In this document: positions 22,037 through 26,619 of the stretch, piece after piece
Layout: each line of letters begins with the position of its first letter
How positions within the stretch are numbered: position 1 is the first letter of the stretch
IMG/VR virus record: IMGVR_UViG_3300032315_000070
Coordinates: 1-28,399 of that record
Strand: one strand, 5' to 3'
Length of the DNA: 28,399 bases
From: a virus
Notes under the pieces: generated by a model
Seen by the model: only the letters and a program-made list of their open reading frames with translations
Told to the model about the DNA's origin: nothing
The model's database searches: none
Program-made: the position numbers and the translations under genes

Positions 22037-23470
22037 TCACACCGCGTAAGGATTACCCTTCTTGCGTCCGTAATATTCAACTTCCCGATCTTCCTCAACG
22101 TATGGGTCAATGTCAAGGAAACCCGCATCCCTCAAGTACCGTAGTGCTTGCGTGCAACTGTCTACAAAGTCATCGTGCGTTGACTCAGGGAAGCTGCAGA
22201 TCTGACTCACAAACCCTTCAGCCCAGTCGCGGACGAACCCCTTCTTGTTTGAGCTCTCAGGGATCCACACGCGCTTGTGGGCGATGATGTTCGCCACGAT
22301 CGACAGCCGCTGAATCTTGTCAGCCCGCCCGGGGTTGTACGCCCTCACAGGCAGGTGCGCCCGCTGCAAGTCTTGGATAAGGCTAATCCCAGCAGCCTTG
22401 TCTTCAATAAGGACAAGATCCACCTTCTTTCCACCGACAAAGTTTCCTCGCTCTTCATCCTCGGGGTCAGCGCCATACGAAACTTTGAACTCCTCAAGAA
22501 CCTTCGGACGGAGATCCGGGTACTGTAGGCGGTCTTGCCACGCATCGATGAGCATGACAGACATCGGGCCGTCTTGAGGCTTAAAGACTCCCCAAGTGGT
22601 GGCGGCGGTTGGGTCATTGACAGTCTTTTCGGTATACGCGCAGTCATAGGATTGGATGATGTACTCGAACTTAGGAAAGGGTTTGTTAGCAGGCCACAAA
22701 CGGAAGTGCTCACGCTTGACCATCCCACCCTCTTCGGGGTCGATCAGTTCAGCGTAGATCTCTTGCCTGCCGAGCTTAGTGCCCTCGTACTGGAGGATCT
22801 GCTTCCTGAAGTTGTCAGCGAGGTTGTCGAGGTTCTCGTAGGTCGAGGCGGTCACCAGCGCCACATCGTCGCCCGACCTGTCCACCAGATCGAGGATCAA
22901 GTCCTTCGGCCTCGGAGTCGTGGTGCAGATCAGCCGCACCTTCTTACCCAGACGCAGGCCGAACTGCATCATGTCCCAAGCGTCTTGCAGGTACTCCCAT
23001 GCGGCTAACTCATCGCACCAGCCACCGTGGAACTGCGGGCCTCGAAAGCGCTCAGGCTCGGATGCCGGGATGCCCTTGATCAGGCTACCATTGATCAGCA
23101 CCAACTCATGCAGCGCCTTGTTGTAGTCCTTGATCAGCACACTAGGGATCACTGAGAGCAGGCCGGAGTCGCCCTCAAAGCAGGTCGAGCGGACATCGGA
23201 GGAGGTCGGCGCAGCCACCACCCAGCGGGTCTCAGGATGCTGCCACGCCCACCAGCCAAGCTGTTCCGCAGCCGTCCTTGTCTTGCCAGCGCCTCGACCA
23301 GCCAGCAGCAGCCAGATGTCCCACCAGTCGCCCGAGGGCAGGATCTGGTATCGGTGCGCCTTCAGCAGCCATCTAGTGCGCCACTCGAATGCAGCCCGAT
23401 ACTCCGCAGGCAACTTGGCGTACTGAGCCCGAGTCGCAGGGTCTTTGAGGATCTCGACTAAGTCGCTCAT
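22037..23470 (-). CDS. terL: Terminase large subunit, 477 aa
   Basis: The packaging motor ATPase and nuclease. Walker A is LAGRGAGKT at about residues 56-64, Walker B is HGGWCDE at about 148-154, and the coupling motif CTTTPRP lies near 182. The C-terminal RNase-H-type nuclease has its acidic residues at SYDCAYT (about 276), LVLIEDKAAG (about 356) and HDDFVDS (about 433). All expected catalytic residues are present and the length is usual. The start MSDLVEILK (ATG at 23470) is preferred because it overlaps the upstream stop as ATGA; a GTG/ATG frame further upstream would overlap that gene by 46 bases. It works with the small subunit at 24165-24671 and docks on the portal. Confidence 0.96.
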   Translation of the reverse strand: MSDLVEILKDPATRAQYAKLPAEYRAAFEWRTRWLLKAHRYQILPSGDWWDIWLLLAGRGAGKTRTAAEQLGWWAWQHPETRWVVAAPTSSDVRSTCFEGDSGLLSVIPSVLIKDYNKALHELVLINGSLIKGIPASEPERFRGPQFHGGWCDELAAWEYLQDAWDMMQFGLRLGKKVRLICTTTPRPKDLILDLVDRSGDDVALVTASTYENLDNLADNFRKQILQYEGTKLGRQEIYAELIDPEEGGMVKREHFRLWPANKPFPKFEYIIQSYDCAYTEKTVNDPTAATTWGVFKPQDGPMSVMLIDAWQDRLQYPDLRPKVLEEFKVSYGADPEDEERGNFVGGKKVDLVLIEDKAAGISLIQDLQRAHLPVRAYNPGRADKIQRLSIVANIIAHKRVWIPESSNKKGFVRDWAEGFVSQICSFPESTHDDFVDSCTQALRYLRDAGFLDIDPYVEEDREVEYYGRKKGNPYAV

Positions 23471-23700
23471 CGCCGGATCTTCAGGTAGATCGCCAGCAGC
23501 AGGCCAACGCACGCAGCCTCAGGCTTACCAGCCACCGCAAACATCAGGGCTACGAATACAGATAGGAACTCAATACATAAGATGGCGATGTCTACACCAT
23601 CCCAGAGCGCCGTCTCATGCTGGCGCTGGGCTAGAGCGGCTTTGCGCTCGGCGATGCGGATTTCGAGGTCGTTGATCACCAGAGTCGGTGCTTGCACCAT
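23467..23700 (-). CDS. Small membrane protein with coiled-coil N-terminus, holin-like, 77 aa
   Basis: After ATG at 23700 the frame reads MVQAPTLVINDLEIRIAERK, then a charged helix AALAQRQHETALWD, a membrane segment DIAILCIEFLSVFVALMFAV (about 37-56), a short GKPEAA turn, and a second hydrophobic stretch CVGLLLAIYL (about 64-73) before KIRR. Two membrane helices with a basic end are typical of small class II holins, so a lysis role is possible. Alternative starts are a GTG at 23679, which overlaps the previous stop as GTGA and may be the true start, and an ATG at 23730. Function inferred only from topology. Confidence 0.75.
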   Translation of the reverse strand: MVQAPTLVINDLEIRIAERKAALAQRQHETALWDGVDIAILCIEFLSVFVALMFAVAGKPEAACVGLLLAIYLKIRR

Positions 23701-24007: not shown

Positions 24008-24168
24008 CTCAGCTCCCGCACCTTCTCAGGCTCGTCGTGCTTCTGATATTTACTTTGGGTCTGCTTGTTCAGGCAGGCTTTGCAGATCCACCGTCGGATC
24101 GTCCCTCGCTGCTGCTTCTCACCGCCCTCTTCTGCCCTTGTGTACTGGCAGGATGTGCAGAATCTCAT
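24004..24168 (-). CDS. Small zinc-ribbon-like protein, 54 aa
   Basis: The short frame reads MRFCTSCQYTRAEEGGEKQQ then RGTIRRWICKACLNKQTQSK and stops after RELR. Two CxxC pairs (residues 4-7 and 29-32) separated by a charged loop would fold around one zinc ion. It begins as ATGA over the terminase small-subunit stop and ends as ATGA over the next start. Between the two terminase genes it may be a packaging accessory factor; that is inference. Its strict coupling on both sides supports it as real. Confidence 0.8.
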   Translation of the reverse strand: MRFCTSCQYTRAEEGGEKQQRGTIRRWICKACLNKQTQSKYQKHDEPEKVRELR

Positions 24169-24671
24169 TTTGATTGCTTAGTCAGCTCGATGTTCTTCAG
24201 GACGGCATCGAAAACGCTGGTGTCTACCGTCATCGCCAGTGGGTTCTCTGCGTCGCCAGCGAGGATCTGTCTCTCGCCATACACTTTCGGCAGGTACTTC
24301 GCTGCCAGCCACTTGCGACCATCCATCCTCAGGCGCTTATGGGCGATGCTGCCACTGTCGTACTTCTTGTTGCCATGCTCATCGTGAATGGCTAACGGCT
24401 CCTCATCGATGATCTCTGCGATTTCTGCAGCGTAAGTATGCGCCCCGTCTGAGCGGGCTGTCTCGTAAAGCTGACGAAATTCCTCATCGACTCTTAGCCA
24501 TTTGTAAACATTTACGATGTCTGGCATGTGATCGTCTTTAGCGATGCGGCTCATTGGCTCACCCTTGGCTAGACGCGCACATATCTCCTCTACTAGCTCG
24601 GGAGTCTTTTTGCTTGGCCTGCCCACCTTCTTTCGGGGCTTTGCTTGCTCAGCGGAAACAGAGTCAGACAC
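24165..24671 (-). CDS. terS: Terminase small subunit, 168 aa
   Basis: Starts with GTG (24671), 1 base after the previous stop, with a GGAAG ribosome site overlapping that stop. The N-terminus is basic (KPRKKVGRPSKKTPELVEEI), followed by a helix-turn-helix ARLAKGEPMSRIAKDDHMPD and VYKWLRVDEEFRQLYETARS, then a helical body with AEIAEIIDEEPLAI and HKRLRMDGRKWLAAKYLPKV, and a C-terminal tail. This is the pattern of Sf6-like small terminase subunits that bind the packaging start site and bring DNA to the large subunit. The large subunit follows five genes downstream, with four small genes in between. Confidence 0.92.
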   Translation of the reverse strand: MSDSVSAEQAKPRKKVGRPSKKTPELVEEICARLAKGEPMSRIAKDDHMPDIVNVYKWLRVDEEFRQLYETARSDGAHTYAAEIAEIIDEEPLAIHDEHGNKKYDSGSIAHKRLRMDGRKWLAAKYLPKVYGERQILAGDAENPLAMTVDTSVFDAVLKNIELTKQSK

Positions 24672-25304: not shown

Positions 25305-25490
25305 TTAAGTTGTCGTTGCTGGTTGCTCGGTCGCAACTTCTTGTATGGGTAACTGCGGTAGCGCCTGCTCTCGGATATTCGCAATCATCTGGGCTGACTG
25401 ATTGAAGGGCAGGCTACCTAATAAGGTTAATAGTACGTTAACCTCATCCAAATTGTAAAGCAGGCTAATCTTGATGTCCTTGTTGTCCAT
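25305..25490 (-). CDS. Conserved small phage protein, 61 aa
   Basis: Starts MDNKDIKISLLYNLDEVNVL, then LTLLGSLPFNQSAQMIANIR and a Pro/Thr-rich C-terminus. 'YNLDEVNVLL.LLG.LP' followed by a helix is a conserved small phage pattern I know, with no established function. A strong AAGGAG ribosome site precedes the start. The gene overlaps the previous one by 26 bases. Confidence 0.85.
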   Translation of the reverse strand: MDNKDIKISLLYNLDEVNVLLTLLGSLPFNQSAQMIANIREQALPQLPIQEVATEQPATTT

Positions 25491-25617
25491 CTCTCTCTCC
25501 TTGTTCTTTCAGTTTTCTTTCCAACTGAACCAGCTCTCTTTGCAGAGGAATTGTTTTCTTAATTGGCAATAGGGGAATCAGTTCTTTAAGATGCTTGATT
25601 CTCTGTTCTGTATCCAT
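25465..25617 (-). CDS. Small helical protein, 50 aa
   Basis: From ATG at 25617 the protein reads MDTEQRIKHLKELIPLLPIK, then LQRELVQLERKLKEQGERD, and ends HQD. It is charged and helical, probably coiled coil. ATG at 25650 would extend it by 11 residues but has no ribosome site. It is the first gene after the non-coding region, so its transcription depends on read-through or a promoter I cannot identify. It overlaps the next gene by 26 bases. Function unknown. Confidence 0.68.
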   Translation of the reverse strand: MDTEQRIKHLKELIPLLPIKKTIPLQRELVQLERKLKEQGERDGQQGHQD

Positions 25618-25836
25618 CTTCACACCCACCCTTGGTGAATCTCTGAGCATAGCAAGCCCTTACCGTACAGCACGGGCTCGCTTTCCCACCCTCGGAGCCA
25701 TCCCGTCGCGTAGCATCCCAGACTTGTTTCAACCACCCGGCTCTAGGATTCGCCCACCGTCCCTGCTCTGGCTTGCTCGTGTAGCAGGGTAGTCATCAGA
25801 CACCACCGACGTACCGCATGTCTAAGGCAGCAAGCC
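25618..25836 (-). other. Gene-free structured stretch between the ncRNA and the packaging operon
   Basis: No credible frame exists here on either strand. On the minus strand it holds a 9-bp stem (25674-25682 with 25651-25659, one G-U pair) and a perfect 7-bp stem (25783-25789 with 25761-25767, 15-base loop). No sigma-70-like promoter with proper spacing is clear. It may be the leader of the following operon, or a continuation of the structured RNA if the T8 tract at 25837-25844 is not its end. Confidence 0.5.
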
Positions 25837-25936
25837 AAAAAAAAGCCCTGCAAAGGAGGCTTTAGGCTTGGTTTGCCGCATGTAGAGGGTGCTAGGCCAC
25901 CTTTCTACAGCTTTGACGAAGCCGCCTTTGCAGGGC
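25837..25936 (-). terminator. Terminator-like closing stem and U-tract of the ncRNA
   Basis: GCCCTGCAAAGG (25936-25925) and the following six bases pair with the mirrored arm 25862-25845 in 17 of 18 positions, and T8 follows on the minus strand (25844-25837). The arms are separated by a 56-base branch with its own hairpin (25882-25908). The U-tract exists only in leftward orientation, which fixes the direction of the RNA. Confidence 0.78.
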
Positions 25937-26427
25937 GTTCTATCGCTAACCTAGAGCTACTGTCCGGCACCACCCGTCAACAGATGACTGGATTAGACCA
26001 GACTTTCACGGACGATGCAAGAGGGTGTTGGGCTCGATTTGGTCTTCAACTAGGCAAACCAGAAAGCCAGAAAACAGTCTGCGTTGACATCCTCGATTGC
26101 TGGCTTAACACCCAACACGGATGAGGACTGGTACCCGGCTAGGCCTATGGCTAACCGGCGCAGGCTTGAATTGCATCTCCCAATCCTCATGCGTGTGGGG
26201 GTCGGTACTCGCTGCGTCCAACAAGGCGAAGGGGAGAAGCCCTGCCAGCATCCGCTTTCCCGACTGGTATGGAGACCGACTCTCTCCGTAGAGTTCCCGT
26301 CTACGGGGGCGGGGGTGGTGCCCAGCCGATCTCCATGCCACTCGGTGCTGTACGCAGTCGGCTCAGCCGCCGTCCTTGACGTCTCATTGTTAAGGCACTG
26401 CGCTTGCCCAATGAGATGCCAGTTTAC
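25837..26427 (-). ncRNA. Large structured non-coding RNA (about 590 nt), GOLLD/ROOL-like candidate
   Basis: No credible gene exists in either strand here, yet the minus strand folds into many nested helices. From 5' to 3': 26382-26389 with 26409-26416 (8 bp); 26324-26345 with 26260-26281 (20 of 22 positions pair) capped by a 10-bp hairpin at 26283-26309; 26121-26131 with 26180-26190 (11 bp, one G-U) enclosing 26135-26142 with 26151-26158 (8 bp, one G-U); 26111-26118 with 26025-26032 (8 bp) enclosing 26100-26106 with 26064-26070 (7 bp); 26009-26013 with 25962-25966; and a closing stem 25919-25936 with 25845-25862 followed by eight U. A loop-to-strand pairing (25892-25897 with 25949-25954) could be a pseudoknot. 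Length, setting in a phage and complexity fit the large ornate phage RNAs GOLLD or ROOL; the class is inferred, not shown. Confidence 0.65.
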
Positions 26428-26619
26428 CTACTTTTCAGCATTCACGAGTTTCATCGCGTATTCGGCTATTTCCTTGATACTCGCCGAGCAAGTACCATCC
26501 TCAATGATGTCCTCCATCGCAGCCATGAGGATCATCTTGCTGCAATACTCCTCATACGCCATGTCAGCTACCCGGTTAAAGTCTTTTTCTATTTTGTCAA
26601 TTACTTGTAAGTCATTCAT
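26428..26619 (-). CDS. Small helical protein, 63 aa
   Basis: Starts MNDLQVIDKIEKDFNRVADM, then AYEEYCSKMILMAAMEDIIE and a C-terminal helix KEIAEYAMKLVNAEK. Acidic, all helical. A strong AAGGAG ribosome site stands 7 bases before ATG. It is the last gene before the non-coding RNA, whose first hairpin starts 12 bases after this stop. No family recognised. Confidence 0.82.
   Translation of the reverse strand: MNDLQVIDKIEKDFNRVADMAYEEYCSKMILMAAMEDIIEDGTCSASIKEIAEYAMKLVNAEK

Follow-up and report, generated by a model that had tools for sequence, protein, structure and literature searches.

Structured RNA modules and a candidate promoter, pseudoknotted leader, and D unit ahead of the packaging operon of an environmental phage

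In lambdoid phages, a promoter, a short leader, and a terminator lie ahead of the late genes. A trait of ROOL RNA is its homo-oligomeric nanocage. GOLLD is a single large RNA, and many of its members are over 800 nucleotides in length (PMC12286853). The put RNA of phage HK022 is approximately 70 nucleotides long, is composed of two stem-loops, and has two copies per genome (PMC9378689). The HMP-PP (thiS) riboswitch has a conserved sequence embedded in the stem of an intrinsic terminator and a possible pseudoknot (PMC6478431). The locus described here shares individual traits with each of these systems, and its sequence is most readily described as a series of separate RNA elements.

The window is the whole 28,399-nucleotide stretch of viral DNA that was analyzed. 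The initial annotation placed in it, at positions 25837-26427, one ornate RNA of approximately 590 nucleotides with at least ten helices, lying in a gene-free gap between the early-type genes and the packaging operon. The placement agrees with the PHROG matches of the small and large terminase subunits. The minus strand of this interval folds at −250.6 kcal/mol, against −209.9 ± 6.5 kcal/mol in dinucleotide shuffles (z −6.2; no shuffle among 100 folded as well), and the plus strand has a z of −4.2. No tRNA or tmRNA was found in the window. One minus-strand frame is open for approximately 125 codons within the window. Among the 12 homologues of module A, no conserved frame runs through the first 168 or so nucleotides: lengths vary by 1-2 nucleotides, stops occur in every frame of nearly all, and only one other homologue keeps any stop-free frame. 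A conserved protein in 25837-26427 was rejected because the homologues change frame. Together, the fold z-score and the lack of a shared frame argue that the helices are real RNA structure and not a gene.

The absence of a gene and the strong minus-strand structure are thereby confirmed, with compensatory changes in many helices. The two comparisons proposed in the initial annotation, for compensatory changes and for a conserved frame among homologues, found the former and not the latter, and the structure was not refuted. The closing stem and U8 described at the end of the interval are also real. The extent was correct in that the interval is structured and non-coding, but the block is longer, about 25632-26427 on the minus strand, because further conserved RNA (module D) comes after the U8. 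Likewise, many of the helices carry compensatory changes, but they belong to several RNAs, as indicated by the promoter inside the interval and by relatives that have only some of the modules. The features are listed in Table 1.

Table 1. Predicted features of the structured block and the flanking genes, in window positions.
Feature	Positions	Strand	Description	Basis
Upstream flanking gene	26428..26619	-	63 aa, function not assigned; stop codon a few nucleotides before module A	Kept in relatives (alignment A1)
Module A	26265..26427	-	Structured RNA, two main hairpin domains	12 homologues, RNAalifold
Module X	26201..26264	-	Outer stem GUCGG/CCGAC, internal loop GAAAGCGGAUG / ACGCAGCGAGUA, hypervariable payload hairpin	
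Module Y	26116..26194	-	ACGCAUGAGGAUUG - payload - CAGUCCUCAUCCGUG hairpin	At least 171 distinct copies
Module Z	26028..26115	-	Second arm after Y, closed by GUUGGG/GCCCAAC	10 distinct near-identical homologues
Sigma-70-like promoter	25992..26020	-	−35 TTGCAT 26020-26015, 17 bp, −10 TCTAAT 25997-25992, start near 25985	Inspection, 11 loci
Leader RNA	25837..25985	-	Approximately 149 nt	Alignment A5
Leader P1	25983-25979/25964-25960	-		
Leader pseudoknot strands	25954-25949 and 25897-25892	-		
Leader terminator stem	25936-25925/25856-25845	-	Followed by U8, 25844-25837	
Module D	25632..25828	-	Conserved RNA, approximately 200 nt, ends UUCACCA, between terminator and next gene	Comparative
Direct repeat, copy 1	25685..25692	-	AGGGTGGG, inside D	
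Direct repeat, copy 2	25625..25632	-	AGGGTGGG, 3’ end of D, near start codon of next gene	
First gene after D	25465..25617	-	Start codon at 25617; packaging operon next	ORF list
TerS	24165-24671		Packaging operon	PHROG match
TerL	22037-23512		Packaging operon	PHROG match

Homologues were drawn from relatives of the terminase large subunit, which gave 80 viral loci. All relatives are metagenomic contigs. By nucleotide comparison, the flagged region is present in part of the 80 loci, often piecewise. In the interval bounded by the same pair of flanking genes (alignments A1 and A2), one locus contains modules A and X only (L014), another A, X, Y, and Z (L010), a third A, X, and the leader (L003), and a fourth A, X, Y, Z, and the leader (L008); a fifth has two Y modules (L016). 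Because these combinations differ, the region can be regarded as a series of elements gained and lost independently. Across 38 records (34.7 to 98 kb), the exact patterns of X, Y, and D each have at most one match per record, counts that are lower bounds because exact patterns miss variants. Nucleotide searches of the phage collection for related annotated phages returned no match, and phage MW202545, which has the nearest terminase, contains none of the searched motifs. The exact-pattern search of bacterial genomes matched one contig.

A cmscan of the window against all 4227 Rfam families, the check proposed in the initial annotation, returned no match at E ≤ 1, and the covariance models of GOLLD, ROOL, HEARO, and OLE were all without a match at this threshold. 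Membership of, or kinship with, GOLLD or ROOL was therefore not borne out, as the region is also composite, with an internal promoter and modules in differing combinations. The suggestion of a new class of similar kind survives in a loose sense, since new structured phage RNAs are present, but they do not make up one giant RNA. An Rfam scan of six related loci returned only one real tRNA and two sub-threshold matches at chance level. Judged by Rfam and the open-access literature, the RNA families of the region are probably undescribed, and an earlier description elsewhere is possible. Integron attC-like sites, suggested by the GTTGGGT/GCCCAAC ends, were considered and dropped because the interior sequence is conserved and G-U pairs are common.

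The RNAalifold consensus of module A from the 12 homologues has 52 pairs, and in 10 of these both partners show compensatory changes. All helix pair counts given here take the rows as they stand, with kinship between sequences ignored. The X-closing strand GUCGG also pairs with CCGA of module A (26201-26345, minus strand), and the observed changes fit both pairings. In the predicted structures, modules A and X may be competing, mutually exclusive folds.

Copies of module X were gathered using an exact 16-base pattern of its 5’ strand, which returned at least 120 stretches of viral contigs. The invariance of this strand is partly by construction, as the same strand was used to gather the copies. 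The 3’ strand, absent from the search pattern, was found in range in 105 of 119 among the matches listed. Across at least 148 distinct copies, the outer four pairs are formed in 100, 100, 99, and 90 percent, respectively, compared with 85, 96, 61, and 49 percent with shuffled partners. The covariation score of the outer stem in the counted alignment (n = 33) is 0.561, against 0.128 when shuffled, and 0 of 500 shuffles scored as high. The payload is hypervariable, yet folds better than shuffles (mean z −0.8).

Module Y has an inner stem with compensatory pair types and many G-U pairs in at least 171 distinct copies. X and Y each consist of a constant frame around a hypervariable, structured payload. 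We know of no precedent for such frame-plus-payload modules. Among the matches listed, the sequence UUGG...CCAAC follows Y in 130 of 171 copies (control, 18 percent), a pattern that suggests a two-arm unit made up of Y and Z. Homologues of the window’s own Z (10 distinct sequences) are nearly identical to it, and the case for Z is one of similarity and of the UUGG...CCAAC count.

Among the matches listed, 319 X and Y payloads sort into 214 clusters, of which 147 are singletons. The comparison of X payloads with Y payloads gave one weak match. T-arm-like hairpins are present, among the matches listed, in 6 of 148 X payloads and 10 of 171 Y payloads, compared with 0.1 and 0.3 in shuffles. By eye, some X payloads resemble tRNA bodies, with a D-arm, an anticodon arm, and a T-arm, and with the X frame replacing the acceptor stem (L112, L137, and L176); ARAGORN called no tRNA in the tRNA-like payloads. 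Two loci with nearly the same flanks (L131 and L160) differ completely in their X payloads, as would be expected after a payload exchange.

Among the matches listed, X usually lies approximately 11 nucleotides past a stop codon and is in the sense orientation. Of the genes preceding X, 48 percent encode an acidic tail (for example, in L084, L089, L094, L099, and L194), compared with 11 percent of control ORFs. An acidic tail is a trait of single-strand DNA-binding proteins, and one acidic-tail gene ahead of X has a match to the Enc34 ssDNA-binding family. In L022 (5035-5182), L023, and L095, X and Y modules have as neighbors small genes for cysteine-rich peptides whose first residues resemble a signal sequence (MKYLIALWL...).

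The promoter-like site lies downstream of Z on the minus strand. Across the 11 leader-family loci, aligned by eye, it is composed of a TTG-type −35, a spacer of approximately 17 bp, and a TA-rich −10, with 6-7 nucleotides to the conserved start of the leader. The −35 is a perfect TTGACA in L364, L366, L391, and L419. A general consensus promoter scan did not list the promoter of the window, because its −35 hexamer matches only three of six positions.

The leader alignment (A5) supports six helices with 37 pairs, 94.8% of cells paired, and both-sided changes in 20 pairs. Its covariation score is 0.525, against 0.220 when shuffled; 0 of 500 shuffles scored as high, and all slid versions were far lower. 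The pseudoknot is 6 bp long and joins the strand ahead of the terminator to the tip of the terminator hairpin. It is formed in 62 of 66 pairs across 11 loci, whereas 2000 shuffles gave 33 pairs on average and a maximum of 53. The four absent pairs are all in one row, which is apparently shifted by one column. The internal loops of the leader (GGCUUCGUCAAAGCU / AUGCGGCAAACCAAGCC) are conserved. A covariance model of the leader from which the pseudoknot was left out detects four loci outside its alignment (L344, L347, L348, and L037; E 1e-18 to 1e-21), and on inspection all four keep the pseudoknot; the first three are nearly identical to one another and thus amount to few independent cases.

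A second leader family, of other sequence, is also located upstream of D. In 23 of 23 sequences, 6 or 7 of the 7 bases of its terminator-tip heptamer can pair with the 5’ part, compared with 30 percent when shuffled, in an anchored test that was designed after inspection of those sequences. The signal is present only in this anchored test; an unanchored search, open to any leader-terminator complement, gave no informative signal in this family. A third leader type before D (L440, L452, L461, and others) is marked by two conserved words, TGTGGTCTTG and GCTCTCGCCAAGAGCCAAGACC, along with a terminator-like hairpin.

The D anchor pattern returned at least 120 stretches in the collection scan, and at least 115 copies were extracted. 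The alignment (n = 45), folded with RNAalifold, has 14 pairs changed on both sides. The minimum free energy of the D of the window, taken alone, is no better than that of shuffles (z −0.8), so the case for D rests on comparison. Among the matches listed, a T-run precedes D in 81 of 86 cases; a promoter-like site does so in 45 of the 86, compared with 11.5 percent of random windows that contain such a site. Outside this phage group, the leaders upstream of D are other sequence families, and D in other phages also precedes non-packaging genes. By exact pattern, D occurs once per record, in 9 of the 38 records searched. In L003 (3200-3440) and L008 (5190-5420), a different, structured-looking stretch follows the terminator in the place of D.

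Module D contains an internal hypervariable word of 6-10 nucleotides that recurs at its 3’ end. The two copies co-vary over 61 unique pairs, with a mean shared length of 7.5, compared with 4.3 with shuffled partners. The complement of this direct repeat, sought in cis as an alternative pairing partner, was not above chance. To our knowledge, a co-varying direct repeat of this type is without precedent.

We give slightly better than even chances to a reading, drawn from sequence comparison, in which the region comprises several RNA elements and the promoter, terminator-like leader, and D gate transcription before the packaging operon as an RNA-embedded switch. The aligned sequences themselves show the helices and the pseudoknot, the pattern of the promoter, and the succession of promoter, leader, terminator, D, and gene. 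Modules A, X, and Y-Z, the first 400 or so nucleotides on the minus strand, would be structured elements lying between cistrons, at the 3’ terminus of the early-type transcription unit upstream, and would shape or mark the end of its transcript. The sigma-70-like promoter would start a second transcript inside the region. Its leader would fold into the terminator-like hairpin, with the strand just 5’ of the hairpin pseudoknotted to the tip, and the hairpin would terminate transcription. Expression of the packaging operon from this promoter would then need regulated read-through of the terminator, followed by D. Termination would be conditional, with the pseudoknot and the conserved internal loops as a putative site that a ligand, a protein, or RNA polymerase might occupy, and the occupant of this site would decide between stop and read-through and hence the timing of the packaging operon. 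Because D precedes non-packaging genes in other phages, such a gate would not be specific to packaging.

The leader could instead be the gene of a free-standing, trans-acting small RNA of approximately 149 nucleotides, with D following by chance as a separate RNA or a 5’ UTR. The promoter, the compact fold, and the terminator-like hairpin would delimit a complete gene of this type, and the single D in those few records that have one is consistent with it; the frequent T-run, or terminator-like leader end, before D suggests coupling to what lies downstream, and we consider this alternative possible but unlikely. One large ornate RNA of the GOLLD or ROOL kind over the whole 590 nucleotides would account for the strong fold across the entire stretch in a phage setting, and a relative (L037) carries Y and X modules next to a tRNA. 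The lack of an Rfam match, the internal promoter, and relatives with only A and X, with A to Z, or with A, X, and the leader make this the least probable of the explanations weighed here.

For X and Y, a further explanation is that they are mobile or recombining cassettes whose constant frames serve payload exchange, with RNA function secondary. The differing payloads between like flanks in L131 and L160, the many payload clusters and singletons among the matches listed, and the tRNA-like bodies read by eye all fit this view, but compensatory changes and G-U pairs in the stems point to selection on RNA structure, and the payloads are themselves more structured than shuffles. We consider it quite improbable. 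A view of some modules as novel self-cleaving ribozymes or as remnants of introns is very improbable: conserved internal loops do lie between variable stems, and the invariant UUCACCA that ends D is succeeded by the copy of its internal word, but no Rfam ribozyme or intron family matches, and in the inspected cases no gene was interrupted by X.

A broader reading is doubtful. Environmental phages might share an RNA toolkit composed of constant frames with one hypervariable, exchangeable payload per genome (X and Y-Z) and a unit of promoter, pseudoknotted terminator, and D, with the repeated word inside D taken from the sequence that flanks its 3’ end. Through this direct repeat, the D RNA could base-pair with the DNA template strand immediately downstream and might, for instance, prime or direct some process at that site. 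We are aware of no phage RNA with such a design. X, Y, and D are abundant in environmental phages, with at least 120 stretches for each in the collection scan, and have no Rfam model. The frame-plus-payload modules and the direct repeat of D give precise, checkable predictions. The leader would be a directly testable new form of phage transcription control, in which a pseudoknot links the terminator tip to the preceding RNA.

By the tests made, the region does not appear to belong to the HMP-PP, lambdoid Q leader, or put classes, and the parallels would be functional ones. Like GOLLD and ROOL (PMC12286853), it contains structured phage RNAs, which are sometimes near tRNAs; unlike them, it is composed of separable short modules with an internal promoter and no Rfam match, and not of one large RNA. 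The put RNA of HK022 (PMC9378689) is likewise a structured phage RNA that emerges near a promoter and might, as a nascent transcript, act on RNA polymerase. The leader (approximately 149 nucleotides) and D (approximately 200 nucleotides) differ from its 70-nucleotide, two stem-loop form in size and fold, and D follows a terminator. As in the HMP-PP riboswitch (PMC6478431), where the pseudoknot is a possible one, the leader combines conserved sequence with a pseudoknot in a terminator, here involving the tip of the hairpin. It is larger, is found in phages before packaging or other phage genes, and is a candidate switch; no known riboswitch model matches the window, as judged by the Rfam set as a whole. 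The lambdoid pR’-tR’ region with Q antitermination (PMC6606751) offers the same arrangement of a promoter, a short leader, and an intrinsic terminator upstream of late genes, and at this locus a promoter and an intrinsic terminator precede the packaging genes as a sequence pattern. The difference is that the leader RNA at this locus is itself conserved and pseudoknotted.
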